Source of the DNA: Streptomyces sp. Je 1-332
GTDB taxonomy: Bacteria; Actinomycetota; Actinomycetes; Streptomycetales; Streptomycetaceae
Assembly: GCF_040730185.1 (NCBI RefSeq)
Contig: NZ_CP160402.1
Location: 5,270,001 to 5,334,000 of the forward strand
Direction: 5' to 3'
DNA: 64,000 bases
Shown: piece by piece, positions 17,481 to 31,382 of the stretch
Layout of the letters: each line of letters starts with the position of its first letter
Position numbering within the stretch: position 1 is the first letter of the stretch
Position numbers and translations under genes: made by a program
Notes under the pieces: generated by a model
The model's database searches: none
What the model was told of the DNA's origin: nothing
The model's input: only the letters and a program-made list of their open reading frames with translations

Positions 17481-17891
17481 TCAGCCGTTGAGCTCACCGT
17501 TCCCGGACAGGACCGGGATGTCGTTGAGGATGTGCGACAGCGGCTCGTCGCCCTTGGCCTGCGTCGAGTTCTCGGTGCACTGCTGGTTCTGCGGCGCCGA
17601 CAGGATCGGGATGTCCTGGACACCGACGTTGACGAGCCCGACGAGCGAGGTCAGGTTCGCCTTGACCGGCAGACCGACACAGGGCTTGTTCAGCGAACCC
17701 TGGACGAGGGAGAGCTGGGGGCTCATGTCGCCGTGCGTCGCGGAGTTGCCGTACGCCTGCTGGGAGCCGTTGCCGCTCAGGGAGGTGGTGCCGTGGTCGT
17801 CACCGATGGCCAGCGCCGACGGGGCCGCCGCGGCGGTCATACCGACGACGGAAACGGCAACTGCCGCCGTGGCCATAGCCTTCTTCATCAT
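17481..17891 (-). CDS. rdlA: Rodlin, 136 aa
   Basis: Rodlins are secreted proteins that organise chaplin fibrils into the paired rodlets of spores and aerial hyphae. The start is ATG 17891 ([13 protein letters not shown]) with AAGGAA nine bases upstream; the longer frame lacks a ribosome site. The signal peptide ends at about residue 29 (ALA-IGDDHG). The mature part has the family words [43 protein letters not shown] and [13 protein letters not shown]. It is divergent from the next rodlin and shares an exact 141-base segment with it (see repeat). The symbol follows position relative to the chaplins; which copy is RdlA rather than RdlB is not certain. Confidence 0.93.
17526..17666 (-). repeat. 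141-base exact inverted repeat, copy in rodlin 1
   Basis: These 141 bases are the exact reverse complement of 18323-18463 in the divergent rodlin, by direct reading of both strands. The identity covers [13 protein letters not shown] through SHIL and stops at single-codon differences on both sides. Identity at every synonymous position points to recent gene conversion or duplication. Confidence 0.92.
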
Positions 17892-18097
17892 TTTGTGTGT
17901 TCCTTTTCTGGCAGAAGCTCGAGTCACTGCGCGCTGAACAACCGGTCGGCGCGAGTTTGAGTTTCGGGGCTTCACTCGGTTGGGGTGCGCGTCCGCTCCG
18001 CATTGGGCCATCAGGGTGAATGGGAGCAACTAAGCGCAGGGCGTGGAGTTAATCAGAGCGCTCCGGCGAACGGGGTTTCTCCAGAAGGGAATTAGTT

Positions 18098-18508
18098 GTG
18101 ATCAAGAAGGGTATGGCCGCAGCCGCGGTTGCTGTCTCCGTCGTCGGCATGTCGGCCGCAGCAGCTCCGTCGGCGATGGCGATCGGCGACGACCACGGCA
18201 CGACGTCGCTCAGCGGTAACGGCGCCAAGCAGGCGTACGGCAACTCCGCCACGTACGGCAACATGAGCCCGCAGATGGCGCTGATCCAGGGCTCGCTGAA
18301 CAAGCCCTGCATCGGTCTCCCCGTCAAGGCGAACCTGACCTCGCTCGTCGGGCTCGTCAACGTCGGTGTCCAGGACATCCCGATCCTGTCGGCGCCGCAG
18401 AACCAGCAGTGCACCGAGAACTCGACGCAGGCCAAGGGCGACGAGCCGCTGTCGCACATCCTCTCCGACATCCCGGTCCTGTCCGGGAACGGCAAGGGCA
18501 ACCACTGA
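18098..18508 (+). CDS. rdlB: Rodlin, 136 aa
   Basis: The start is GTG 18098 with GAAGGGA seven bases upstream. The precursor begins [17 protein letters not shown], and the signal peptide ends at AMA before [14 protein letters not shown]. The mature sequence differs from rodlin 1 in a few positions of the N-terminal half ([15 protein letters not shown]) and the very C-terminus (GKGNH). It keeps the two cysteines in LNKPC and QNQQC. The 207 bases between the two divergent starts must hold both promoters. It ends in its own terminator. The two rodlins are expected to be secreted together during aerial growth. Confidence 0.93.
   Translation: MIKKGMAAAAVAVSVVGMSAAAAPSAMAIGDDHGTTSLSGNGAKQAYGNSATYGNMSPQMALIQGSLNKPCIGLPVKANLTSLVGLVNVGVQDIPILSAPQNQQCTENSTQAKGDEPLSHILSDIPVLSGNGKGNH
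18323..18463 (+). repeat. 141-base exact inverted repeat, copy in rodlin 2
   Basis: This is the partner of 17526-17666. With about 650 bases between the arms, the pair could support inversion of the intergenic promoter region or ongoing gene conversion. The third rodlin (20153-20560) shares the same segment with scattered differences. Confidence 0.92.
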
Positions 18509-18895: not shown

Positions 18896-20041
18896 GTGGC
18901 GACGAGCGGTTTACCGTTTCTTCGTCCCGGTTCCCCCGCAGCGGAGTCCAGCTTGCGTACTCACGTCAACTCACCGGCCGGATCCCGGCGTGCGCGAAGG
19001 CTGCGTGTCGCCGTTCCGGTGATTCTGCTGGCCGCCGCCGCCGTGGGAATGGGAAATGCCGCGGCACTGCCGCTCCCTGTCCAACGCGTCGATGTCTTCG
19101 GCGACATGAAGAATCGACCGAACGAGGGAAGCGGTACGAATATCCTCCTGATGGGGACGGACGGCCGCGACACGATCACGCGCAAGGAGAAGCGGCAGTA
19201 CTACGCGGGCGGAGTCGCCTGCGACTGCACGGACACGCTCATGCTGGTCCATGTCTCGCAGGCACAGGACCGCGTCAGCGTCGTCAGCCTCCCGAGGGAC
19301 TCCTACGCCGACATCCCCGCCCACCGCGACAAGGCCACGGGGCAGGAGCGTCCCGCACGGCCGGGGAAGATCAACGGCGCCTATGCGCAAGGCGGTCCCG
19401 CGCTCTCGGTGCGGACGGTCGAGTCGATGACCGGCGTCCGCGTCGACCGGTATCTGCAGCTCGACTTCCGGCGCTTCATGGACAGTGTCGAGACGGTCGG
19501 CGGCGTGCGGGTCTGCACGCCCCGCGCGCTCAAGGACAAGACGACGAAGCTCGACCTCACTCCCGGCAGCCATCTGCTCAACGGCGGCCGGTCCTTGCAG
19601 TACGTCCGCTCCCGCCACGTGGACAACAGCGCCGACTTCGGACGCATCCAGCGCCAGCAGCGCTTCCTCGTCGCCGCGTTGCGCGGCGTACGGACCGAGA
19701 ACGTCCTGGCCGACCCGGTCAGGGCGGCGCGGCTCGCGCGGTTGCTCGTCGGCTCGGCGCGGGTCGACCGGGGATTCAGCACCGAGCAGATCCTGACGCT
19801 CGCGACGCGTCTGGGCAGGCTCCCCGCGTCGTCCATGGAGTTCACCACGGTGCCGGTCAGCGGCTTCAGCGAGAAGCTGCACGGATCGCTCCAGTGGGAC
19901 AGGGCCAAGGCCGGCAAGGTCTTCACGGCCCTCAAGCACGACCAGCCCCTGACGAGCCCCAACTCGCAGGCCAGGCTGAGCGATCCGCCGCGCTTCGCGA
20001 GCCCGGCGACCGTTCGCGGTGACACCCTGGAATGCCGTTGA
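18896..20041 (+). CDS. LytR-CpsA-Psr family protein
   Basis: LCP proteins transfer lipid-linked anionic glycopolymers to peptidoglycan outside the membrane. The 381-aa product has a short cytoplasmic N-terminus, one membrane anchor (VAVPVILLAAAAVGMG near 38-55), and the LCP catalytic core. NILLMGTDGRD near 83 and DTLMLVH near 112 give metal and pyrophosphate contacts, and VVSLPRDSYADIP near 130 gives the conserved Arg and Asp. KINGAYAQGG and RSLQYVRSRH follow. GTG 18896 opens the frame, but a TTG at 18953 has a better ribosome site (GCGGAG, six bases). That start would trim 19 residues while keeping the anchor. It stands between rodlins and could link a surface polymer to the wall. Confidence 0.9.
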   Translation: MATSGLPFLRPGSPAAESSLRTHVNSPAGSRRARRLRVAVPVILLAAAAVGMGNAAALPLPVQRVDVFGDMKNRPNEGSGTNILLMGTDGRDTITRKEKRQYYAGGVACDCTDTLMLVHVSQAQDRVSVVSLPRDSYADIPAHRDKATGQERPARPGKINGAYAQGGPALSVRTVESMTGVRVDRYLQLDFRRFMDSVETVGGVRVCTPRALKDKTTKLDLTPGSHLLNGGRSLQYVRSRHVDNSADFGRIQRQQRFLVAALRGVRTENVLADPVRAARLARLLVGSARVDRGFSTEQILTLATRLGRLPASSMEFTTVPVSGFSEKLHGSLQWDRAKAGKVFTALKHDQPLTSPNSQARLSDPPRFASPATVRGDTLECR

Positions 20042-20152
20042 CGGCGCTCTGATTACTGGGCCAACCGGGTCGAAGGTCGAAACCATCGCCGTGTCAGGCA
20101 GTTGATCATCACGCGGCTCTGCCAAGGGAGCCCGCTCTTGAAGGGAATCAAA

Positions 20153-20560
20153 ATGAACAAGCTGTGGGCATCCGCGGCCATTGCCGCCTCCGTCGCCGGT
20201 ATCTCGGCAGGGATGGCCCCCCAGGCCCTGGCGATCGGTGACGACCGCGGCACCACGTCGCTCAGCGGCAACGGCGCCGAGACGGCGTTCGGCAACTCCG
20301 CGACCAAGGGCAACCAGAGCCCCCAGCTCACGCTCGTCCAGGGCACGCTGAACAAGCCCTGTGTCGCCCTGCCGGTCAAGGCGAACGTCACCTCGCTCGT
20401 CGCGCTCGTCAACGTCGGTGTCCAGGACATCCCGGTCCTGTCGGCGCCGCAGAACCAGCAGTGCACCGAGAACTCGACGCAGGCCAAGGGCGACGAGCCG
20501 ATCTCGCACATCCTGAACGACATCCCGGTCCTGTCGGGCAACGGCTCCGGCAACGGCTGA
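20153..20560 (+). CDS. Third rodlin, 135 aa
   Basis: The start is ATG 20153 ([13 protein letters not shown]) with AAGGGA six bases upstream; upstream in-frame codons lack a ribosome site. The signal peptide ends at ALA before [14 protein letters not shown]. The mature part follows the rodlin pattern ([42 protein letters not shown]), but with Arg for His in the first motif and substitutions such as [14 protein letters not shown]. It is more diverged than the 17.5/18.1 kb pair. S. coelicolor, as I recall, has two rodlins, so a third one is a lineage feature. It follows the LCP gene after 110 bases and probably has its own promoter. Confidence 0.93.
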
Positions 20561-20666: not shown

Positions 20667-20975
20667 GTGATTGAACTCGCCGAAATGATCGCGCAGTTAC
20701 GTGGGCAACTCGCCGCCGCCATGGCCGCGGCCGAAGATGCCGAGGACACTGGTCTGCGCTTCGAGCTCGGCGCCGTACAGCTGGAGACGGAGTTCGTCGT
20801 ACAGCGGTCCGCCGGAGCCGACGGCAGGATCCGCTTCTGGGTCGTCGAGGCAGGCGCCTCCGGCCAGCAGGCGAACAGCACCACCCATCGTGTGTCGCTC
20901 AGCCTGGAGCCCCGCGTCCGCGGCTCCGGTGAACGGCCCTGGGTCAGCGGTGACCGGACCGTGCGCGAGCGCTGA
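20667..20975 (+). CDS. trypco2-domain protein, 102 aa
   Basis: The product begins IELAEMIAQLRGQLAAAMAAAE, followed by a beta-rich part with LRFELGAVQLETEFVVQR, IRFWVVEAGASG and THRVSLSLEPR. This is the trypsin-co-occurring domain 2 pattern (CU044_2847 family), a small domain described in NTP-dependent actinobacterial conflict systems as a partner of trypsin-like proteases. It has no catalytic motif, so an adaptor role is inferred. The start is GTG 20667. It lies 12 bases upstream of the protease gene, in what looks like a four-gene operon. Confidence 0.85.
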   Translation: MIELAEMIAQLRGQLAAAMAAAEDAEDTGLRFELGAVQLETEFVVQRSAGADGRIRFWVVEAGASGQQANSTTHRVSLSLEPRVRGSGERPWVSGDRTVRER

Positions 20976-20987
20976 GCCCGGACACCC

Positions 20988-22055
20988 ATGGCGACGGCAG
21001 AGGGTCTCGAGGCGGCGCGGGTCGCCGAAATACTGGTGGAGACGCCGGGCGGGGAGCCCGGGCGGCGCGGGTCCGGCTACCGCGTGGGGGAAAGGTCCGT
21101 GCTGACGGCCGCACATGTGGTCGCGGGACCCCTGACGTCGGTGCGGGTGCGCTTCGACGCCGATCTGCCGGGGGAGTGGAGCGCGGACGTACGCGTCGTG
21201 CTGCTCGCCGAGACCGTGGACATGGCACTCCTGGAGATCATGACCGTGCCGCCCGGGGGTCCGGCAGTAGGGACTCCCCGATACGGCACCGTGCCCGACG
21301 CCGATGTGGTGCTGCCCGTCAGCGCGATGGGCTTTCCCCGTTTCAAGCTGCGGGACGACAGCATGCGCCTCCTCGATGACGGCGCCCCCAGCCAGTACCG
21401 CGACTCCTGCCATGTCTCGGGGACCGTCTCCGTCCTGTCCAACCGCCGCGAGGGCACACTCGAACTGGCCGTTCTCGCGCCGCGCGCGGACCCCGAACCG
21501 GAGCGCTCGCCGTGGGAGGGAATGTCCGGTGCGGCTGTCTGGTCCGGCGGCGCCGTCATCGGAGTGATCAGCGCCCATCACCGGTCGGACGGTCTGGGGC
21601 GGCTCGCGGCGGGGAGGGTGGAGCAGTGGTACGGCGCGCTGTCGTCGGCCGAGTTGGAGCACCTGCGCGAGGCCGCTGGTCTGCCGGCACCTGGAGGGCT
21701 TGGTTCCGCGGCGGATCCGGAGGGGACGGCGGCTCCCGCGAGCCTGGCGGGCCTCCCCTCTGACCTGCCATTGCGTGAACTCATGGGGCTGGTCGACGCC
21801 TTGGTGGAGGTGCCGGCCCTCAAGGACGCGGGCGGGCTCGGTCTGGTGCTCGCGAGCATCGACGCGGAGATCGCCGCGAACCGCCCCAGGGACCCCAGAC
21901 TCCGGATGGACATCTACGGCATCGTGCACACCTGTCTGCGCTACCGGGGCACGCTCGATCAGCTCCTTGAGACCGTCCGGCTGCTGGAGGGACAGTCGAC
22001 GGAAGTGGCCCGTCTTGACCGTGAGGCGGCCCAACTGGCCAAGCGATACTGCTGA
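20988..22055 (+). CDS. Trypsin-like serine protease with C-terminal EAD2-type domain
   Basis: The 355-aa product has a chymotrypsin-fold protease with a readable triad: His43 in LTAAHVV, Asp78 in ETVDMALLE and Ser180 in EGMSGAAVW. There is no signal peptide, so it should act in the cytoplasm. After an Ala/Gly linker (about 230-255), a helical domain follows (LPLRELMGLVDALVEVP, LVLASIDAEI, YGIVHTCLRYRGTLDQLLETV). It matches effector-associated domain 2, an adaptor that couples effectors to STAND-type ATPases through like-domain contacts. The probable role is a protease effector switched on by the NB-ARC or VMAP proteins encoded nearby. That is inference from the known domain associations. Confidence 0.85.
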   Translation: MATAEGLEAARVAEILVETPGGEPGRRGSGYRVGERSVLTAAHVVAGPLTSVRVRFDADLPGEWSADVRVVLLAETVDMALLEIMTVPPGGPAVGTPRYGTVPDADVVLPVSAMGFPRFKLRDDSMRLLDDGAPSQYRDSCHVSGTVSVLSNRREGTLELAVLAPRADPEPERSPWEGMSGAAVWSGGAVIGVISAHHRSDGLGRLAAGRVEQWYGALSSAELEHLREAAGLPAPGGLGSAADPEGTAAPASLAGLPSDLPLRELMGLVDALVEVPALKDAGGLGLVLASIDAEIAANRPRDPRLRMDIYGIVHTCLRYRGTLDQLLETVRLLEGQSTEVARLDREAAQLAKRYC

Positions 22056-22134
22056 CTTGATGTCGGGCACGGCTCGGATGCGGGGTTTCGCAGCGTGCCG
22101 TGCTGGGTCATCATGAGGGGGAAAGGGATGGCGC

Positions 22135-22344
22135 ATGCACGGAATCGCGGGAGGGGACTTGGCAGCCGTGGAGCAATCGATGCCTGCCGTCGAGTCCGAT
22201 CTCGTAGATCTCTCGGGGGTTTCACTTGAAGCGCTGCTCTCCATGGACCGCAGTGCCATCGCGGGGTCGCTCGACCCCCTGCTGCGCCACATCGACGACG
22301 CGCGCGCCGTCACCATGTCGTACAGCCCCTCCCGATTCGACTGA
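22135..22344 (+). CDS. Precursor-like peptide, 69 aa (diverged FxSxx-COOH type)
   Basis: The peptide has a leader-like part with DLVDLSGVSLEALLSMDRS and a helical GSLDPLLRHIDDA, similar to the leader pattern of FxSxx-COOH precursors. It ends TMSYSPSRFD. The family's signature F-x-S-x-x-COOH is absent: the residues are Tyr-Ser-Pro-Ser-Arg-Phe-Asp. GGGGGAAAGGG lies just upstream of the ATG at 22135. The gene sits 35 bases before the HExxH enzyme, so it is the expected substrate, and Tyr, Phe or the terminal Asp are candidate hydroxylation sites. Nothing in the peptide predicts export. It could alternatively be a small subunit of the enzyme. Confidence 0.7.
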   Translation: MHGIAGGDLAAVEQSMPAVESDLVDLSGVSLEALLSMDRSAIAGSLDPLLRHIDDARAVTMSYSPSRFD

Positions 22345-22379
22345 CACGGCCGCGGCCGTCACCGCGCCGTGGAGCACCC

Positions 22380-24263
22380 ATGTCGGATAGGCGCGGAGCG
22401 TCCGTGTCGGACAGGCGCACGGCGACGACAGGTCTGGCGTTCCACCGGCTCTCGGAGTCCAGTGCTGCGGCTCTGGCGCTGGGCGAGGGCGGCAGCGCGG
22501 CCGTGGAGGAACTCGTCACCGCCGAGCGCAGCCGCCGACTGCTGCTGGTGCGGGCGCTCGCCGACGGCCTGAGCGAAGGTGACCCGCCGCAGCCCGCCGG
22601 GACGGGCCCCATGTCGCACCGGGCGGCCTGGACGTTGCTCGCGCGCACCCAACAGCTCGCGCCCCAGGCGTTCGAGGACACCCTGATGTGCCCGCACACC
22701 GGTATGTGGCTGTCGCTCGCCCTGCGCAGGCTGCGCGGCGCGACGGCCTACGAGGACGCACCCCTGTGGGTGGTCATCGGGCACCTTTCGGCGCTCGCCG
22801 CCGCCGCCGCGACCCGGGCCGGCCTGAACTTCTCCCTCACCGTGCCGGTGCGCCACGGCCGGGTGCCGCTGCCCACCCTGGGCTGCGCGGCGTTCGAGGA
22901 CGTGGCGGAGCCGTGGGGCACGGCCCAGGTCGACGCGCGGGAGGGACGGCTGCGGATCACGGCGGGCCGGCAGACCGTGACGGCCGGGCCCGACTGGTCC
23001 CTCGGTGCGCCGGGCTGGCACGCGGTGCGCCGCCTGGAGCTGGAGCCGACAGGGCCGGGGAAGCGCCTGGCGCTCGACGAGTTGGATCCCTATCGCACCT
23101 TCCCGCACCCGAGCCCGCCCCGCCTGCTGTCCGCCACCGAGGCGCGGACGTGGGAGGAGCAGCTCACCGAGGCGTGGGCGATCCTCCGGCGTGACGAGCC
23201 GCAGAGCGCGGAGGCGATGCGCGTCGGGCTGATGTCGCTCGCGCCCACGCCGGCCAGGGAGCGATACCGGCCGCACAGCGTCACGGCCGGGGACGCGTTC
23301 GGCGGTGTCATGGCGTCACGGCCGGACGACGTGGCCCAGCTCGCCGCGACGCTGGTGCACGAGTTCCAGCACACCAAGCTGGGCGGTCTGATCCACCTGG
23401 GACCGCTGAGCGAGCCGACGGACCCGCGGGGGGCGCACGAACAACTCTTCTACGCCCCGTGGCGGGACGATCCGCGGCCGCTGAGCGGTCTCCTCCAGGG
23501 GATCTACGCCTTCGCAGGTGTGGCCCGGTTCTGGTCCGTCCACCGGCATGCCGCCGACGCCGCGTACGCCCCGATGGCCCACTTCGAGTTCGCCCTGTGG
23601 CGTGCCCAGGTGTCGGCCACCGTGGACCTCGTACACCGCCACGACCGTCTGACCTCCCTGGGGCGGCGGCTCCTCGGCGCACTGCGCGGGCGGTGCGAAG
23701 AATGGATGTCCGAGGCGGTGCCGCCCGCCGAACTGGCGGCGGCGCGAGAGGCGGCGGCCGACCACCGCGCCCGCTGGCGCGCCCACCATCTGCGGCCGCC
23801 CGCCGCGGCCGTGGAGGACGCCGTGGGGGCCTGGCGGCGAGGAGAGGCCCGGCCGCCTGCCACGCTCGCGGCGCGGCCCGAACTCGCTCCGGTCGCCGAT
23901 GCGCGCTACCTGGACACCGCGGCTGTCCTGGCCCGCTACCGCCTCGGCTCCCCGGCGGCCGACCCCGGTGACATCGAGGGCGTCCAGCCGGCCGACCTGC
24001 TGCTCGCGCGCGGGGAACTGAGCGGGGCGCGGGACGCCTTCGTCGAACAACTCGGCGGCGAGAAGCCGGTGTTCGCGGCCTGGGCGGGTCTTGGCAGGGC
24101 CCTGGCAGGGGTGGCCGAGCACCGGGATGCCTCCCGCCTGCTGCGCCACCGCCCGGAACGGGCCCGCGCCGTACAGAGCGCGCTGGAGCACGCCACCGGG
24201 CAGCGGGCCGATCCGGTGGAGCTGGCCGCGTGGCTGGGGCGGGGCGAAACGGACCTGGACTAG
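22380..24263 (+). CDS. aKG-HExxH-type peptide beta-hydroxylase-like protein
   Basis: The 627-aa product has the HExxH motif in TLVHEFQHTKLGGLIHLGPL, with the first His at about residue 327. That matches the family found with FxSxx-COOH precursors and described as alpha-ketoglutarate-dependent iron peptide hydroxylases rather than zinc proteases. The N-terminal 300 residues are helical and Arg/Ala-rich with no recognised fold; the region after the motif (AHEQLFYAPWRDDPRPLSGLL) is typical of the family. The C-terminal part (about 540-627) is alpha-helical and repeat-like. GGAG lies seven bases before the ATG. It is the last gene of its operon and converges on the NB-ARC gene. No radical SAM domain is fused to it or lies nearby. 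Confidence 0.82.
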   Translation: MSDRRGASVSDRRTATTGLAFHRLSESSAAALALGEGGSAAVEELVTAERSRRLLLVRALADGLSEGDPPQPAGTGPMSHRAAWTLLARTQQLAPQAFEDTLMCPHTGMWLSLALRRLRGATAYEDAPLWVVIGHLSALAAAAATRAGLNFSLTVPVRHGRVPLPTLGCAAFEDVAEPWGTAQVDAREGRLRITAGRQTVTAGPDWSLGAPGWHAVRRLELEPTGPGKRLALDELDPYRTFPHPSPPRLLSATEARTWEEQLTEAWAILRRDEPQSAEAMRVGLMSLAPTPARERYRPHSVTAGDAFGGVMASRPDDVAQLAATLVHEFQHTKLGGLIHLGPLSEPTDPRGAHEQLFYAPWRDDPRPLSGLLQGIYAFAGVARFWSVHRHAADAAYAPMAHFEFALWRAQVSATVDLVHRHDRLTSLGRRLLGALRGRCEEWMSEAVPPAELAAAREAAADHRARWRAHHLRPPAAAVEDAVGAWRRGEARPPATLAARPELAPVADARYLDTAAVLARYRLGSPAADPGDIEGVQPADLLLARGELSGARDAFVEQLGGEKPVFAAWAGLGRALAGVAEHRDASRLLRHRPERARAVQSALEHATGQRADPVELAAWLGRGETDLD

Positions 24264-24265
24264 CG

Positions 24266-24289
24266 CGGTGGGGCGCGAAGGCCCCACCG
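24266..24289. terminator. Bidirectional hairpin between converging operons
   Basis: CGGTGGGGC (24266-24274) pairs with GCCCCACCG (24281-24289) in the 35-base gap between the HExxH and NB-ARC/TPR stop codons. Confidence 0.8.
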
Positions 24290-24298
24290 GCATGTGGG

Positions 24299-27200
24299 TT
24301 ACAGCGGCACCGGGTCGATGTCGCAGTTGGCCCGCTGACCTGCCTTGGCCTGGACGGTGGCCGGGTGCGGGGCGGCGTTCTCGGAGCGGAGCCGGGGCTC
24401 GTCGAGCACGCGCTCCATCCGCGCGATCGTGTCGGCCCGCAGGGTGGCCCCGTCGGTCTCCTCGCCCACCGCGACCAGGTCCGTCGCCAGGTTCAGGGCG
24501 CAGGCCAGCGTGGTCGGGTGGTCCTCCCCGAGCGTGCCGCGGCAGCGCTCAAGGGTCTCGTCGCCGAGCGTCCGGGCCGCGGCGTGGTCGCCGAGCGCGG
24601 CCAGGTCGCTGGCCAGGTTGATGGCGCAGGCCAGGGCGATGGGGTGGGCCGCACCGAGCCGTTCCGTCAGCGAGGAAAGGGCCGTTTCGTCGAGCCGGCG
24701 CGCCTCGTCGGGCTGACCGAGCAGACGCAGCGTCACCGCGAGGTCGATGTCGGCGGACAGGACGTGCGGGTGGCTGGGGTCGAAGATCTCGCGGTACCCC
24801 TGGCAGGCCTTGACCCCTCGCTCACGTGCCGCCTGGAGGTCGCCGTTCTCGCGCAGGGCGATGGACAGGGTCAGGGCGGCGGAGAGCGACTGAGGGTGGT
24901 TGTCGCCGTACCGGCGGGTGAAGCGTGAGCTGGCGTCGAGGGCCAGTTCGAGGGACTTGGCGTGGTCGCCCTCCTTGCGGCAGGCCTCGCTGAGCTGGCG
25001 TACCGTCTCGATGGTTGCGGGGTTGCCGCTGCCGAAGACCTCGCGGTAGGCGTTCAGGACGGCTTCCTGCCGGGCGCGTGCGCTGACGTAGTCGCCGGTC
25101 TCGCGCATGTCGATGGCGACGTTGAGCTCGGAGTGCAGCGTCTGCTGATGGTCCTGGCCGAGAACCCGCAGCTTCAACGCAAGGGTCTGCTGGTCGAGTT
25201 CGTGGGCCTTGCGGTAGTCCCCCATCAGGCGCAGGCTCACCGAGAGGTTGTGGGCGGTGTTCAGCGTGGTCGGATCCTCCTCGCCGAAGGCCCGGCGCGC
25301 CCGCTCGTAGACCGTGGCGTCCAGCTGGGCGCCGAGGGCGAAGTGTCCCTCGACGCGGCGGACGGCCGCTTCGAGTTGGATGGCGTCCAAGGCGTCCTCG
25401 CGGGTGTCCTCACCGACGGCCGGGGCTGTGCGCTCGTAGATCTCCCTGATTCGGGCCACCAGCGACGCTGCCTCGCGGTGCCGGCCGACGCTCCAGTAGA
25501 GGAAGGTCAGTTTCTGCCCCACGAGGAGCGTCATCTGGTCTTCCTCGCCGAACACCTCCCGCCAGGTCTCCCAGGCCCGCTCGGAGAAGTCGATCGCCAC
25601 TTCGTGGTCGCCCCAGCGGTAGAGGTACTCGGCGACGTTCAGGACGAGCTGGCGTACCCAGGGCTGGTCCGACTTGACCGCGTCGGACGCGATGACGTGG
25701 CTGTAGAGCTCCGCGTAGCGCGGCCAGTTGGCCGGGGAGACCGGGGACTTGGGGTCGGCGGCGGCCAGCAGGGTGTGGGCCCCGTGACGCATCCGGGCCT
25801 GTTCCTCGGGAGACATGCGGTTGTTCAGGACGAGCTGTACGAGGCGGTGCATCTCGATGGAGTTCGTACGGTGGTCGATGCGGGCGAGGGAGTAGCGGTT
25901 CACTTCCCTTATGGCGCGCGCGAGCCGCATCGGGTCGTTCAGCGTCGCGTCGAGCTCGGGGAAGATGCTGCTGTTGCCGAGGCCGGAGAAGATGGACCGC
26001 GAGATCGGGTCCGGGGCGAAGTACGAGCAGAGCTGCAGCAGACGCAGGGCCGATGGGCTGCGGTTCTCCAGGTGGTCGAGGGAGACGTTCCAGGCGGCCG
26101 CGACCGGCAGTTGGTAGTCCGGGGGCGGGGACGTCTCCAGAAGCTCGGTCCGCTTGTTCTCGAAGAGGCGCAGATACTCCGAAGCGGGCATGCCCGTCTC
26201 CGCACGCCACGCGGCGGCCTGCTCCAGGGCGAGCGGCAGGTCTCCCAGCGCCTCGGCGAGACGGTCCGCCTCGTCCTCCTGGAGGGGCGGCCCGGAGTGG
26301 CGCAGGAGTTCCTTGCTCTCCTCGCGGGTGAAGACGTCCACTTCGAGTGAGCCGCCGACCAGGCCCCACCGCCGGTTGCGGGAGGTGACCAGGATCGTGC
26401 CGTTGCCCCCGGTGGGGAAGTAGTGACGTACCTGCTCGGGGTTGTCGGCGTTGTCGAAGATCAGCAGCCAGCGTGAGTAGGGCCGTCCCTCGCGCAGCGC
26501 CTCACGCACCGCGGGGCCCGCGATGTTCGCCTCGGTGCTGGTCTCCAGGCCCAGGCGTCCGGCCAGCTCGACCAGCGCCTGACCGATCTGGCCCGGCCGC
26601 TCGGAGGGAATCCACCAGACGATGTCGTACTCACCCTGATGGCGATACGCGTACTCGATGGCGAGCTGGGTCTTGCCGACGCCGCCCATGCCGTGAATCG
26701 CCTCGGGCAGGACCGTGGTCGTGCCCTCCCGCAGACGCTCGCCGAGCAGTTCGAGCAGCTCCGCGCGACCGGTGAAGTTCGGGTTACGGGGCGGCAGGTT
26801 TCCCCAAACGCGCGGCTGTGATGTGCGGTCCCCCTCCACCGTTTGCTGGGACGTAGTCGACATCGCCAATACTCCTTCAGGATGGGGCCGGGAGTCGGGG
26901 GTTCGACCGCTTTTCTCCAGGCTGACTGCGTATCGACGATCGTGCCAGCCAAGTACCCCTGCCAGCAGGGCGGCGCGCTGCATGAAACGTCCGGAGAGTG
27001 CCCTCAGCGCGGCGAGTTCCACGCGGAGGAAGCCGATGTTGCGGCTGTTCACCCGGGGCATGGCCAGGGTGTCGAGCGGTTCGGCGGGGGAGGGGAGCAG
27101 CGAGGGGGCGCCGGTGCCGTCGCCCGCCAGTAACGCGCGTACGTCGTGCAGGATCCGCGCCGTGTCGCTGCGGCGGCCGAGCGCGAGCAGCTCCTCGCGG

Positions 27201-28201
27201 ATGTCGGGAGCGAAGGAGAACGCCACGTCCGTGATGTCGTCGCCCTGCTCCCCGCTGGGCCGGACGAGGCCGCTCATCAGCAGCTCCGACACGTGCGCGG
27301 GGCCGGCCCCCGGCGTGGTCTCCAGGACCTTGCGGATCAGCGGGAGGCTCAGGGGGACGGCGGACAGGCGCGTGGCCAGGGTGAAGGCCGTGGGAGAGGC
27401 CCCGGCGCGATAGTCCGAGACGCGTTCCGCCGCGGGCACCGTGCTGCGCGGGTCGGGGACCTCGTCCGTCCAGGGCAGGGCCCGCGCGGCGTCCGGCCTG
27501 CGCTTCCACTCCCGCGCACGGACAGCGGACATCTCGAGCCACCGCGGCTCAGGTCCCATGACGAGCTGGGTCCAGGCCTCGGCCCAGCGGTTGGTCAGGG
27601 CGAGGACCGGCACGAGGACCGCGTCCCCCTCGACCTCCGGCTCTGCCGGGTCGCGCGACTCGACGGGGGCATCGCGCAGCTCCCAGTCGAGCTCGCTGTT
27701 GGCCGCCCAGGCGTGGTCGGCGCGCAGCCGCACCCGGCAGACGTCCAGGCCCGTGCGGAACCACAGCTGTTGGGGGAGCACGTGCACGACGGCGACCGGG
27801 CAGGTGCGGCTCCAGGCGCGCAGCAGGGGCATGACCGCGCCCGAGCGCCAGCCGGCCGCGAGACCGTCGGTGAGCACGAGGATCACGCGGCGCATGTCTC
27901 CCGCGCTGCCGAGCGGTTCCTCGGGGCCGATGCGGGCCGGGTCCGTCTCGTCGGTGCCGCGCAGGCTCAGGACGCGTACGCGCGCGAAGTCCCCTTCGCG
28001 GTTCAGCTCGTCGACCAGGTCGTCGACGGCGTGGTCCCAGATCCGCATGGTCAGGTGGCTGTCGAGGACGAGCACCGCCTCGGAGCGTTCCTGTCTGCCC
28101 GGGCGGCCGGTCGCCGCGCGCCCGAGTCGGCCGAGAACGGACGCGGCCTCACGACGTGCCCGCGTTGCCGGTCCCTGCCGCTGCCCTCCGTCGTCATGCA
28201 T
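24299..28201 (-). CDS. SAV_2336-domain / NB-ARC / TPR regulator (FxSxx-COOH system TPR protein)
   Basis: The 1300-aa product starts at ATG 28201 (MHDDGGQRQG), with GAGGG five bases upstream; the frame further up lacks a ribosome site. Residues 40-430 match the SAV_2336 N-terminal domain (AVLVLDSHLTMRIWDHAVDD). From about 450 it has the STAND core: NFTGRAELLELL, Walker A GMGGVGKTQ near 500, Walker B WLLIFDNAD and GLxLAL-type LGDLPLALEQ. From about 860 to the end it has tetratricopeptide repeats with HPxxL words (TTLNTAHNLSVSL, TTLACALNLATDL). An internal MSTTSQQTVEGD near 450 could start an NB-ARC-only form. STAND NTPases sense a signal and oligomerise to activate effectors; here the protease and the peptide pathway are the likely outputs. 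Confidence 0.88.
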   Translation of the reverse strand: MHDDGGQRQGPATRARREAASVLGRLGRAATGRPGRQERSEAVLVLDSHLTMRIWDHAVDDLVDELNREGDFARVRVLSLRGTDETDPARIGPEEPLGSAGDMRRVILVLTDGLAAGWRSGAVMPLLRAWSRTCPVAVVHVLPQQLWFRTGLDVCRVRLRADHAWAANSELDWELRDAPVESRDPAEPEVEGDAVLVPVLALTNRWAEAWTQLVMGPEPRWLEMSAVRAREWKRRPDAARALPWTDEVPDPRSTVPAAERVSDYRAGASPTAFTLATRLSAVPLSLPLIRKVLETTPGAGPAHVSELLMSGLVRPSGEQGDDITDVAFSFAPDIREELLALGRRSDTARILHDVRALLAGDGTGAPSLLPSPAEPLDTLAMPRVNSRNIGFLRVELAALRALSGRFMQRAALLAGVLGWHDRRYAVSLEKSGRTPDSRPHPEGVLAMSTTSQQTVEGDRTSQPRVWGNLPPRNPNFTGRAELLELLGERLREGTTTVLPEAIHGMGGVGKTQLAIEYAYRHQGEYDIVWWIPSERPGQIGQALVELAGRLGLETSTEANIAGPAVREALREGRPYSRWLLIFDNADNPEQVRHYFPTGGNGTILVTSRNRRWGLVGGSLEVDVFTREESKELLRHSGPPLQEDEADRLAEALGDLPLALEQAAAWRAETGMPASEYLRLFENKRTELLETSPPPDYQLPVAAAWNVSLDHLENRSPSALRLLQLCSYFAPDPISRSIFSGLGNSSIFPELDATLNDPMRLARAIREVNRYSLARIDHRTNSIEMHRLVQLVLNNRMSPEEQARMRHGAHTLLAAADPKSPVSPANWPRYAELYSHVIASDAVKSDQPWVRQLVLNVAEYLYRWGDHEVAIDFSERAWETWREVFGEEDQMTLLVGQKLTFLYWSVGRHREAASLVARIREIYERTAPAVGEDTREDALDAIQLEAAVRRVEGHFALGAQLDATVYERARRAFGEEDPTTLNTAHNLSVSLRLMGDYRKAHELDQQTLALKLRVLGQDHQQTLHSELNVAIDMRETGDYVSARARQEAVLNAYREVFGSGNPATIETVRQLSEACRKEGDHAKSLELALDASSRFTRRYGDNHPQSLSAALTLSIALRENGDLQAARERGVKACQGYREIFDPSHPHVLSADIDLAVTLRLLGQPDEARRLDETALSSLTERLGAAHPIALACAINLASDLAALGDHAAARTLGDETLERCRGTLGEDHPTTLACALNLATDLVAVGEETDGATLRADTIARMERVLDEPRLRSENAAPHPATVQAKAGQRANCDIDPVPL

Positions 28202-28620
28202 ATGCGCCCTCAAGGCGTCGTGGCGGCCAGGACGATGGTGCGGAGTCCCGCAGTGCGCGGGCGTGCGTGACATCCACAAGCGCAGCGTGACAGTGCGCCC
28301 GCAGTGCAAGCAAGGGGGTACGGCGGCATGGGCCGGGGCGCACGGGCATCTTGCCGGAAGTCGCGCCCTGGGAACGGGAGTTCGTGCCTCCGGCGGTGAG
28401 TGTGATGCGCCTGGCGAGTGGCTCCGTGCGCCCGGCCGTCGAAGAGGTGCGCCCGGGTGTCGAGGAGGTGCGCCCGGCCGTCGAGGGTGTGCGCCCGTCG
28501 GGCGGAGGTGTGCGCCCGGTGGGAGACGCCCGTACGGCAGCGGAGGCGGTCTGGGTCACGGCGCGGCACCCCCTCTCGCCGGGTGCGGGAGGTTCACGGA
28601 CCGGTGGCCGGCGGGGCCGG
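28202..28620. promoter_or_regulatory. Intergenic region between VMAP-C and NB-ARC genes
   Basis: These 419 bases contain the 21-base tandem array and no frame I can support. Both strands are open for long stretches because of the repeats, but none of these frames has a good ribosome site or a recognisable sequence. The NB-ARC gene probably has its own promoter here, although read-through from the VMAP-C gene is possible, since no strong hairpin lies between. Confidence 0.45.
28426..28530. repeat. Five tandem 21-base units
   Basis: The word GTGCGCCCG recurs at 28426, 28447, 28468, 28489 and 28510, exactly 21 bases apart. It lies within degenerate units of the form GTGCGCCCGGCCGTCGAGGAG. The last two units are more diverged. 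The period is a multiple of three, so both strands stay open (VRPAVEE on plus, GRTSST on minus), which could mark a remnant of a coding repeat. There are no spacers, so it is not CRISPR. Confidence 0.88.
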
Positions 28621-30108
28621 TCAACTCGTCACCGGCGTACGGTCGGGCCCCGGCGGCCCGGGTCTGCGCTCCGGGTCGTCGAGCAGGATCGCCAGATGGC
28701 GTCCCACGTGGTTGTCCCAGCCCTCGGGGCCCAGCGCCAGTGCTTCCTTGCGCCAATTTCCCGCGCGCGTCACCAGACCGGCGAGGCCCCTGTCCTGGAC
28801 CATCTCGGCGACCGCCTCCTTGAAGGCGGGGTCGCCGCAGTCGCCGCGGTGCCAGATCATCGCGGGCACCCCCGCGCGCAGTCCCGCCATGAACTCCTGA
28901 TGGCTGGCAGGTGAGTCGGTGCCGGGGGGCTGGCTCAGAACCAGGCAGACCGCGTGGTCGTCCTCCTTCAGCTCGCGCTCCAGATGGAAGTGCGACTGGC
29001 CTGGAGGGTTGAAGTACGAATGGCTGTCGGCGGGCTGCTCCTTGAGCTGGCGCCACTTCTTGTGCCAGGGACGGTGCCAGGCGGCCTTGCGCAGGCGCTC
29101 GAAGCTGCGGATCAGAACCGCGTAGTCCATCACCAGAGGGGTCGGGGAGGAGGACGAGGACTCCTTGTGCCACCACTCGACGGGCTCGCCGAGTAGTTCC
29201 CACGGGAGGATGAATTCGAGGACGACCGGTTGTCGCAGGTCCGCCCACCGCTCCTCGGTCTGCTCGATGAGGACCTCGACCTCGGAGGGCAGGTCGTCAC
29301 GGTGCAGATGCAGGGTCTCGCCCGGCACGGGATGCCAGCCCTCGGCGTCCGACTGCCGCCAGTGGGAGAGGAAGTAGCGGTCGGGGTCCACTCCGTCCGG
29401 CTCGAACTGGATCATCAGATACGCGGGCACCATGGACGGCGGGGCCTGCCGGGCCAGGTCGCCACGCTGCCAGTCGGCGATCTGCTCCTCAAGGCCCCAC
29501 GTCCTGGCCTGCTGACGGTTCCAGCGACGCAGGTCCTCCGCTGCCTCCATCTGTCCGTCCTCCACGAGCCGTTCGGCGGCCAGGGCCAGGAACGCCATGC
29601 TGACGGGGAGTTCCTTCGCGGCGGTGTTGTCGCCGGCCAGTCGTAGAAAGACTGCCCATCCCGTGTCGCACCACGCGGGCAATTCCTGGGTGCGTGAGCG
29701 GCTTGCCCGCCGGGCGAGGGTGGCGAGGCCCGCCGATGAGCGCATGTCACGGAGGATCGGCTGCAAAGGATGCAGGTCGGCGCCGTCGAAGAACTCCACG
29801 GCCTCCCACTCGTCCACAAGACGCAGCAGCGACAGGATCGCGGAGGACTGCTGCTCCAGATACTGCAGACAGCGCACCAGACTCGGCAGGCCGTCGGGGA
29901 CCTGCCCGCAGTGCTCCACCAGTTGCAGCAACCAGGGCCGCAGCGCCCCGTTGCGCAGCGGCTCCACAGGGTGTTCCAGCTCTTCGCTCAGCATGCGCAC
30001 CCAGAGATCGGCGCTGTTCTCCTGCCGTACCGTGCTCGAATCCTGCAGTACGTCGACGATGTCGGCGACCAATTCGTTGCGAACCCTCGCAGGGCTGCGC
30101 CCGTCCAC
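28621..30108 (-). CDS. VMAP-C-domain-like protein
   Basis: The 495-aa product starts at GTG 30108 with GGGGAGG eight bases upstream. It is rich in Trp and acidic residues and has no signal peptide or membrane span. The N-terminal 140 residues are helical and resemble an effector-associated adaptor domain (VRNELVADIVDVLQD, LRPWLLQLVEHCG). From about 225 the region YLMIQFEPDGVDPDRYFLSHWRQ, VVLEFILPWELLGEPVEWW and VMDYAVLIRSFERL is the pattern of the C-terminal domain of vWA-MoxR-associated proteins. These occur in ternary conflict systems with trypco domains and proteases. It probably bridges the STAND protein and the EAD2 protease. Family assignment is from memory of motifs. Confidence 0.78.
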   Translation of the reverse strand: MDGRSPARVRNELVADIVDVLQDSSTVRQENSADLWVRMLSEELEHPVEPLRNGALRPWLLQLVEHCGQVPDGLPSLVRCLQYLEQQSSAILSLLRLVDEWEAVEFFDGADLHPLQPILRDMRSSAGLATLARRASRSRTQELPAWCDTGWAVFLRLAGDNTAAKELPVSMAFLALAAERLVEDGQMEAAEDLRRWNRQQARTWGLEEQIADWQRGDLARQAPPSMVPAYLMIQFEPDGVDPDRYFLSHWRQSDAEGWHPVPGETLHLHRDDLPSEVEVLIEQTEERWADLRQPVVLEFILPWELLGEPVEWWHKESSSSSPTPLVMDYAVLIRSFERLRKAAWHRPWHKKWRQLKEQPADSHSYFNPPGQSHFHLERELKEDDHAVCLVLSQPPGTDSPASHQEFMAGLRAGVPAMIWHRGDCGDPAFKEAVAEMVQDRGLAGLVTRAGNWRKEALALGPEGWDNHVGRHLAILLDDPERRPGPPGPDRTPVTS

Positions 30109-30275: not shown

Positions 30276-31382
30276 TCAGCCGTCGGCGAGCCCTGACTTC
30301 AGGCCCGCCCCGCACAGCGGAACCACGGCCGTCCGCTCGCCGAGCGCTCCGTCCCGTACGGCCGCCCAGCAGGCGACGCCGGTCGCCTCGACGTACAGGC
30401 CGCGTCCTGCCAGGTCCAGCTGGGCGGCGCGGATCTGGTCCTCCGTGACCGTCAGGAAGCCGCCGCCGAGACCGCGTACGGCCCGCAGGATCTGGCGTGC
30501 GCGGGGCGGCTGCGGGATCGCGATGCCCTCCGCGAGCGTGGGGGCCGCCGGCGTGGTGCCCAGGGGTTCGTCGGCGCCCGCGCGCCACGCCTCGGCCAGC
30601 GGGGAGACCGCGGCGGCCTGCACGGCGTACAGCGCGGGAGCCTTCGCGATCAGGCCCGCCGTGTGCAGTTCGCGCACCGCGAGGGCCGCGCCGAGCAGCA
30701 GGGTGCCGTTGCCCGCGGGCACGACGAGCGCGTCCGGCAGCCGGCCGCCCAGGTCCTCCCACAGCTCGTGGACGTAGGTCTTGGTGCCTTGCAGGAAGTA
30801 GGGGTTGTGCACGTGCGAGGCGTAGAAGGTGCCCGGTTCGTCGGCCGCCGTCCGGGCCGTCCACGCCGTCTTCTCGCGGTCGCCGGGGACGACTTCGAGC
30901 CGTGCCCCGTGCGCGCCGATCTGTTCGAGCTTCTTCGGTGACGTGCCCTCCGGGACGTACACCGTGCAGGGCAGCCCGGCCCGCGCGCAGTACGCGGCGA
31001 CCGCCGTGCCCGCGTTGCCGCTGCTGTCGGCGATCACCCGGTCCGGGGCGAGGCGCAGGGCGAGGGCGGCGAGCATGACCGCGCCGCGGTCCTTGAAGGA
31101 GAGCGTCGGCATCAGGAAGTCGAGCTTGGCCGAGATCGCGCCATCCAGCGGAACGAGCGGTGTGCGGCCCTCGCCGAGCGAGAACGCGGGGGCCGGCAAG
31201 GGCAGGGACTCCGCGTACCGCCACAGTGAATTGACCCTGCCGGTCAGGGACTTCAGCGGTGCGGGATTGGGGGAGAAGTCCAGGTCGAGGGGGCCGCGGC
31301 AGACGGGGCAGCACCAGGCGAGGGTGCCCGAGGGGACACGGGTTCCGTCGGTGGGGCAGAAACAATCCGGCAATGCTGTCAT
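30276..31382 (-). CDS. Threonine synthase-like PLP-dependent enzyme
   Basis: The 368-aa fold-type II PLP enzyme has the lysine Schiff-base motif LSFKDRGA near residue 97, the substrate loop SSGNAGTAVAAY near 120, a phosphate-binding GNGTLLLGAAL near 223, and PLCGAG at the C-terminus. An N-terminal cysteine cluster (CFCP and CCPVCRG, residues 7-29) looks like a small zinc ribbon, seen in threonine synthase-like and cysteate synthase-like proteins. It would catalyse a beta- or gamma-replacement or elimination on an amino-acid substrate. No threonine pathway gene is adjacent, so it is probably not the main thrC. The monocistronic gene is divergent from the subtilisin. Confidence 0.83.
   Translation of the reverse strand: MTALPDCFCPTDGTRVPSGTLAWCCPVCRGPLDLDFSPNPAPLKSLTGRVNSLWRYAESLPLPAPAFSLGEGRTPLVPLDGAISAKLDFLMPTLSFKDRGAVMLAALALRLAPDRVIADSSGNAGTAVAAYCARAGLPCTVYVPEGTSPKKLEQIGAHGARLEVVPGDREKTAWTARTAADEPGTFYASHVHNPYFLQGTKTYVHELWEDLGGRLPDALVVPAGNGTLLLGAALAVRELHTAGLIAKAPALYAVQAAAVSPLAEAWRAGADEPLGTTPAAPTLAEGIAIPQPPRARQILRAVRGLGGGFLTVTEDQIRAAQLDLAGRGLYVEATGVACWAAVRDGALGERTAVVPLCGAGLKSGLADG

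Follow-up and report, generated by a model that had tools for sequence, protein, structure and literature searches.

A gene cluster at positions 20667 to 30108 of the window, the 64,000-nt stretch of Streptomyces sp. Je 1-332 analyzed here, encodes a short peptide ending in Ser-Arg-Phe-Asp (SRFD) and, downstream of it, an HExxH protein that matches a family of alpha-ketoglutarate (alphaKG)-dependent oxygenases. The reading favored here, with moderate confidence, is that the cluster is an immunity-like conflict module of VMAP type, belonging to the RxD peptide class, and that its enzyme would oxidize the residue before the conserved Arg of the peptide (Ser58), as sequence comparison and analogy with characterized enzymes suggest.

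Kaur et al. described in 2020 (eLife, PMC7159879) systems for peptide processing that are associated with VMAP-ternary conflict systems. In these, a zincin-like protein, presumed to be a peptidase, is paired with a small peptide, which may be of the FxSxx, RxD, acidic, or FtsH-associated type. Radical-SAM/SPASM genes, different from each other, go with the FxSxx and FtsH types; the RxD type, which has no radical SAM gene, was already set apart from the FxSxx type. The RxD and acidic types have an AP-ATPase-TPR fused to the vWA protein, the gene order is strictly VMAP-MoxR-vWA, and VMAP and the EAD2 protease were proposed as sensing and recruiting parts. The window cluster fits this RxD type. 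Shared features are the HExxH protein with a small RxD-tailed peptide, the absence of a radical SAM gene, the AP-ATPase-TPR-vWA fusion, VMAP, EAD2, Trypco2, and a trypsin (for which Kaur et al. allow a separate gene), whereas the window lacks a MoxR gene, and family and fold both place its enzyme with the oxygenases rather than the peptidases.

The cluster had originally been predicted to depart from known systems. Since an RxD type without radical SAM had been described in 2020, that main surprise was already in print, and the absence of FxsB is expected. What seems to be new is the MoxR-free variant and an xRxD tag in common with characterized oxygenases. The 2020 description made the RxD peptides products of a presumed peptidase; the link to alphaKG-HExxH oxygenases predicts an enzyme, a site, and a mass shift for a conflict-system peptide that is widespread in actinobacteria. 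In the open-license literature searched, no work linking RxD peptides to alphaKG-HExxH oxidation and no report of a MoxR-less variant was found. By term look-up, "VMAP," "conflict," and "RxD" are absent from PMC12636437, and "ARMD" and "Streptomyces" from PMC13060819, the two preprints on characterized enzymes considered below.

The HExxH enzyme and the xRxD tail

The enzyme matched TIGR04267 with 164.4 bits (cutoff, 40; E value, 2.5e-48) and was the sole match to this family in its genome. It carries HEFQH at residues 327 to 331 and PWRDDPR at residues 360 to 366, and its C-terminal part is helical. The iron-ligand motif HExxH, on which the original prediction hung, proved invariant across the aligned sequences (59/59 in one set and 45/45 in another). 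The fold was the same as that of solved members, and the enzyme grouped with SjiH and the HExxH domain of ChlB, the structure of which is titled an alphaKG-dependent oxygenase; a PWRxDxRP stretch was common to all three. By profile and fold, the presumed metallopeptidase appears to be an alphaKG-HExxH oxygenase, an assignment that seems new. It is quite unlikely that the protein acts as a genuine metallopeptidase, removing the C-terminal peptide by hydrolysis, as first proposed by Kaur et al., who named it a zincin-like MPTase; the family and the fold argue against this, and hydrolysis by PflC has been described for a leaderless substrate.

A close clade of the enzyme (clade 1; 51 to 66% identity) was found in 15/295 genomes of the genus, that of Je 1-332 included, and among the matches listed for 246 genomes of the class (some of the genus included), none outside the genus exceeded 44% identity. 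At three other loci (L095, L096, and L098), HExxH domains lay within very long open frames of 1,765 to 1,954 aa, with no nearby TPR or VMAP hits.

A small open reading frame (ORF) for the peptide lies between the protease and enzyme genes in 14/14 close relatives. It had been predicted to span 22135 to 22344 and to encode 69 aa. The ORF is present; its start is probably not ATG 22135 and more probably TTG 22159, giving 61 aa, because the window and all eight of its nearest relatives share a GGAGGGGAC-TTG-GCAGCC stretch (alignment of the window and 14 related loci), with ATG 22135 kept in only two of the eight (L055 and L056). Contrary to the TTG start, an MHGI extension is found in 6 of the 16 homologues returned by a database search, all of them close ones; ATG 22180 is a further alternative start. 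When codons of the 69-aa ORF were compared in eight pairs, ratios of nonsynonymous to synonymous substitution (dN/dS) ranged from 0.31 to 0.87 (significance not computed), which fits a coding gene. Upstream, the intergenic block at 22056 to 22119 holds conserved TTGAT, GGGGTTTC, and TGGGTCAT stretches in the alignment of 15 clade-1 loci and is possibly a promoter or regulatory site of the peptide gene. Within the first half of the gene (22159 to 22250), DNA conservation among the nearest relatives seems, by eye, to exceed what the protein would need.

The leader is near-constant around VDLSGVSLEAL in the 16 homologues (conserved leader, ESDLVDLSGVSLEALLSMD), and the tails include SPSRFD, GGPSRFD, NPSRFD, PDRID, and NPSRPD. 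PF27839 is annotated on 12/16 homologues; a local Pfam scan of four of them gave no match to it, the family probably being missing from that copy.

The tail was examined in 100 scored loci, namely, the window and 99 fetched loci (60 + 39), mostly the best scoring, of matches in 181/295 genomes; 67 were FxsB-less and 33 were FxsB-linked. Fifty-nine peptides came from 55/67 FxsB-less loci and 13 from the 33 FxsB-linked loci, which were undersampled because the peptide profile was seeded on FxsB-less leaders; a few hits (such as L164 and L165) are possibly wrong. R-x-D/E ended 32/59 FxsB-less peptides (36 having it at or within four residues of the end) and 0/13 FxsB-linked peptides. With identical tails collapsed, 24 of 51 distinct FxsB-less tails ended in R-x-D/E versus 0.6 expected when the last 15 residues were shuffled (at most 5 in any of 5,000 shuffles), although the sequences are related, so that this figure, like the Fisher value given below, overstates independence. 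The residue before Arg in the 24 tails was A in 8, S in 6, G in 5, E in 2, and K, Q, and M in 1 each; thus, A, S, or G preceded Arg in 19/24. In other families of the class, sampled as 20 loci that yielded peptides in 8/11 FxsB-less and 3/9 FxsB-linked cases, all scoring low (21 to 44 bits), RxD ended five of the eight FxsB-less peptides (NRTD, RRLD, DRQD, RRFD, and DRQD) and none of the three FxsB-linked ones (FEAVI, FQSSI, and FQSSI). In a tree of 110 sequences, RxD/E tails appeared in several separate FxsB-less subclades, interspersed with non-RxD tails. Within clade 1, RxD/E ended 9/15 loci and stood at or within four residues of the end in 12/15, supporting the expectation that the tail would be conserved beside the HExxH enzyme.

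Similar tails are known from characterized substrates. According to Ouyang et al. (2025 preprint, PMC12636437), PosC/PflC beta-hydroxylate a run of Gln residues and remove the C-terminal ARMD by oxidation at Ala, leaving an amide; the A91S variant showed −2 Da on Ser, interpreted as an aldehyde. PesO, from nitrilobacillin biosynthesis (preprint PMC13060819), hydroxylates Pro18 in a P-R-(V/T)-D-N tail, and this Pro co-occurs only with an HExxH gene. Because an oxidized residue directly precedes R-x-D in the substrates of both PosC/PflC and PesO, Ser58 is the predicted oxidation site in the window, with the A91S result as its nearest precedent. The analogy points first to this Ser, ahead of the +16-Da shift on Tyr, Phe, or Asp that had been envisaged. 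Like the PosC/PflC systems, the window has an HExxH enzyme of this family and a precursor whose C terminus reads x-R-x-D; it differs in having Ser for the critical Ala (Ala or Gly occurring in other FxsB-less tails), in lacking a Gln run, in having neither an MNIO-nitroreductase nor a GNAT gene between 20.6 and 31.4 kb, and in its enzyme of 627 aa versus 367 to 386 aa for the PosC-like enzymes fetched. PesO likewise is an alphaKG-HExxH enzyme that acts directly before R-x-D, whereas its system has an MNIO and a nitrile synthetase and its precursor has Asn after Asp. For BpmH, another HExxH protein, the passages of PMC12257519 consulted give no site for comparison. A pattern search returned 14 stretches, all containing an ORF that ends in ARMD, and profile-matching HExxH enzymes were present in 7/14; several of the stretches without a match end close to the pattern match.

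Alternatively, the peptide could be a regulator or partner and not a substrate, for example, an inhibitor of the enzyme or a dock for the TPR protein. Leader conservation exceeding tail conservation in both the homologue and the locus alignments would suit such a role, as would the suggestion, from an earlier study quoted in PMC12636437, that PosA is full length in cell lysate. Given that the xRxD tail recurs across subclades and resembles known HExxH substrates (PMC12636437 and PMC13060819), this alternative is considered very unlikely.

FxsB in the genome and among relatives

Neither the scored window stretch (12001 to 34000) nor any of the 15 clade-1 loci (the window and 14 relatives) yielded an FxsB-like gene, in keeping with the original prediction of a cluster without a linked radical SAM maturase. 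The prediction that the tail differs from FxSxx was also borne out: the window peptide ends SRFD and matched no NCBIfam model, including TIGR04268 (FxSxx tail). A TIGR04268 search of the whole genome returned nothing, a weak result since positive controls also gave no match. The locus shares with FxSxx-COOH/FxsB cyclophane systems an FxSxx_TPR family protein and, with some FxsB-linked loci, a related leader, and differs from them in lacking both a linked FxsB and an FxSxx tail.

The genome (8.27 Mb, one contig) contained 21 radical SAM matches, 20 of them above the cutoff. A single FxsB (414.6 bits; cutoff, 370) was located at 2.337 Mb, 2.95 Mb from the locus. A small ORF, possibly encoding its precursor, overlaps it, and a GNAT gene comes next. 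The good score of this FxsB and the membership of the TPR protein in the FxSxx_TPR family would be compatible with a standard FxSxx ribosomally synthesized and posttranslationally modified peptide served by an FxsB encoded at a distance. The separation of this FxsB from the locus, its adjoining ORF and GNAT gene, and a tail without FxSxx argue against this, as does its distribution. Among the 179 matches listed, FxsB (E value, 1e-80) was present in 8/15 clade-1 genomes versus 171/280 others (Fisher P = 0.59), a clade rate equal to the background. The system occurred without such an FxsB in seven genomes (G280, G123, G011, G196, G159, G022, and G200), where for G123, G159, G196, G200, and G280 absence means not being among those 179 matches. 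FxsB is neither linked to nor co-varying with the clade-1 enzyme. Hence, of the possibility raised earlier that an FxsB elsewhere co-varies with the system, the first half held and the second did not, and an FxsB acting at a distance was rejected on its distribution across genomes as scarcely credible.

At L024 (7729 to 9646), a stand-alone FxsB is accompanied by a GNAT gene and overlaps a small ORF on its upstream side whose product ends in SVSWPWPL; FxsB matches with similar scores occur in many Streptomyces genomes. The tails of the FxsB-linked relatives L112, L189, and L191 to L196 were WGF-x-x-x (such as WGFTNAF and WGFNSAF) and not canonical FxSxx.

The NB-ARC/TPR and VMAP proteins and the MoxR gene

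The cluster had been taken to be bounded by unrelated genes. This was not the case, as the neighboring NB-ARC/TPR (NF040586) and EAD2-VMAP genes belong to the system. These two minus-strand genes face the plus-strand peptide and enzyme genes, and both are kept in 13/14 relatives, the 14th (L061) being a 6.6-kb contig cut off within the TPR gene. The NB-ARC/TPR protein scored 875.7 bits against NF040586 (FxSxx-COOH system TPR; cutoff, 300) and 243.8 bits against NF041121. Pfam identified its NB-ARC and TPR domains, and its Walker A motif is GMGGVGKT, intact in 14/14 clade-1 proteins covering that region. We infer that the NF041121 region is a vWA-like domain fused to the AP-ATPase-TPR; Pfam shows no vWA there. 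The VMAP-C domain of the second protein matched PF20028 with an E value of 1.5e-49.

A MoxR gene between the VMAP and vWA-type genes was found in 0/14 clade-1 loci (the window and 13 relatives), where −126 to 312 nt separate the VMAP and TPR genes. MoxR was present in 28/28 other FxsB-less VMAP+TPR loci examined and in 9/9 such loci outside the genus. Because the gene is missing, the window system was classed as a variant and not as a VMAP-ternary system. Elsewhere in the genome, one VMAP-type MoxR adjoins another VMAP-C gene, and a VMAP-type MoxR was found somewhere in 13/14 relatives' genomes, with no match in G200 (estimated 100% complete, 60 contigs). Decay of MoxR in related loci can be seen only in part: Arg replaces Lys in the Walker A motif of L069 and L070, Ala replaces Ser/Thr in that of L078, and one of two partial MoxR ORFs in L072 lacks the motif, with the remaining hits looking intact. 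Loss of MoxR constitutes a natural experiment on the role of this ATPase in VMAP systems. N-terminal shortening of the vWA-type protein was considered as a strict companion of MoxR loss and rejected, several MoxR-bearing loci also being without the extension.

At L063, L064, and L067, two divergent peptide-HExxH pairs adjoin one VMAP/TPR unit, one pair having a QRDE, QRDEA, or PREA tail; this would suit several peptides feeding one receptor.

Proposed mechanism and gene layout

In the mechanism proposed, the leader would dock the peptide on the HExxH enzyme, which, with Fe(II), alphaKG, and O2, would oxidize the residue preceding the conserved Arg, Ser58 of S-R-F-D in the 61-aa numbering. The predicted product is a beta-oxidized Ser, either hydroxylated or converted to a formylglycine-like aldehyde (−2 Da); the Ala or Gly variants of relatives may instead undergo oxidative backbone cleavage and acquire a C-terminal amide. 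The finished peptide may be a toxin or a signal for the neighboring NB-ARC/TPR switch. VMAP, as partner of that switch, would recruit the EAD2 protease via EAD2-EAD2 contact, and the NB-ARC (STAND) ATPase would replace the missing MoxR ATPase. A broader version is considered doubtful, in which an oxidized ribosomal peptide gates a MoxR-free NB-ARC/TPR switch and one alphaKG-HExxH family reads an x-R-x-D tag, residue x setting the outcome (Ser giving the aldehyde, Ala or Gly giving cleavage and amide, and other residues a beta-hydroxyl). If true, such a rule would bring enzymes of Streptomyces, Pseudomonas, and Peribacillus under one scheme.

Several findings count against Ser58 oxidation in a VMAP-type module. 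Twenty-seven of the 59 FxsB-less peptides lack a terminal RxD/E; within clade 1, tails without it are those of the L063 plus-strand pair, L066, and L068, and L058, L061, and L062 carry it one to four residues before the end. According to PMC12636437, the Ala of PosA is critical and Arg, Met, and Asp are each dispensable, so that the same motif may go with different reactions. Oxidation before Arg is not a general rule for HExxH enzymes, as PosC also hydroxylates the four Gln residues of its run and the ChlB domain targets Asp and His of a cyclophane-bearing peptide (PMC12636437). The PosC-like enzymes are distant, the best reaching 54.6 bits against the profile built here. Between the EAD2 of the window protease and the window VMAP there was no BLAST match, though both match PF19956, and the relatives' VMAPs gave only weak BLAST matches. 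The N-terminal extension of the vWA-type protein is lacking in some MoxR-bearing loci too.

Trypco2, the EAD2 protease, and the HExxH enzyme were recovered by profile where the original prediction had placed them (Table 1). The protease gene was present in 15/15 clade-1 loci, with His, Asp, and Ser intact in 14/15 (Ser is replaced by Ala in L057), and a Trypco2 homologue lay anywhere in the locus in 12/15.

Table 1. Features of the cluster and its surroundings in the window
Feature	Position	Strand	Match or basis
Trypco2 (trypsin-co-occurring domain 2) protein	20667..20975	+	PF19631, 88.6 bits, E value 3.2e-25
Trypsin-like protease with C-terminal EAD2 adaptor	20988..22055	+	PF13365, PF19956
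Conserved intergenic block 5' of the peptide gene	22056..22119	+	15-locus alignment
Precursor peptide, 61 aa, probable TTG start, tail PSRFD	22159..22344	+	
Ser-Arg-Phe-Asp codons at the C terminus (xRxD motif)	22330..22341	+	Sequence
aKG-HExxH oxygenase family protein, 627 aa	22380..24263	+	TIGR04267
NB-ARC (AP-ATPase) + TPR protein, 1,336 aa, N-terminal NF041121 region	24299..28309	-	NF040586
Short gap without a MoxR gene (MoxR AAA+ ATPase gene here in related loci)	28310..28620		
VMAP protein: EAD2 + VMAP-M0 + VMAP-C	28621..30108	-	PF19956, PF19916, PF20028
Threonine-synthase-like gene, next beyond the VMAP gene	30276..31382		

On the other side of the cluster, three rodlin-type genes at 17481 to 18029 (minus strand), 18098 to 18508 (plus strand), and 20102 to 20560 (plus strand) lie around an LCP-family transferase gene (18896 to 20041); the outer two exceed the NF041022 cutoff, and the middle one was assigned by sequence likeness.

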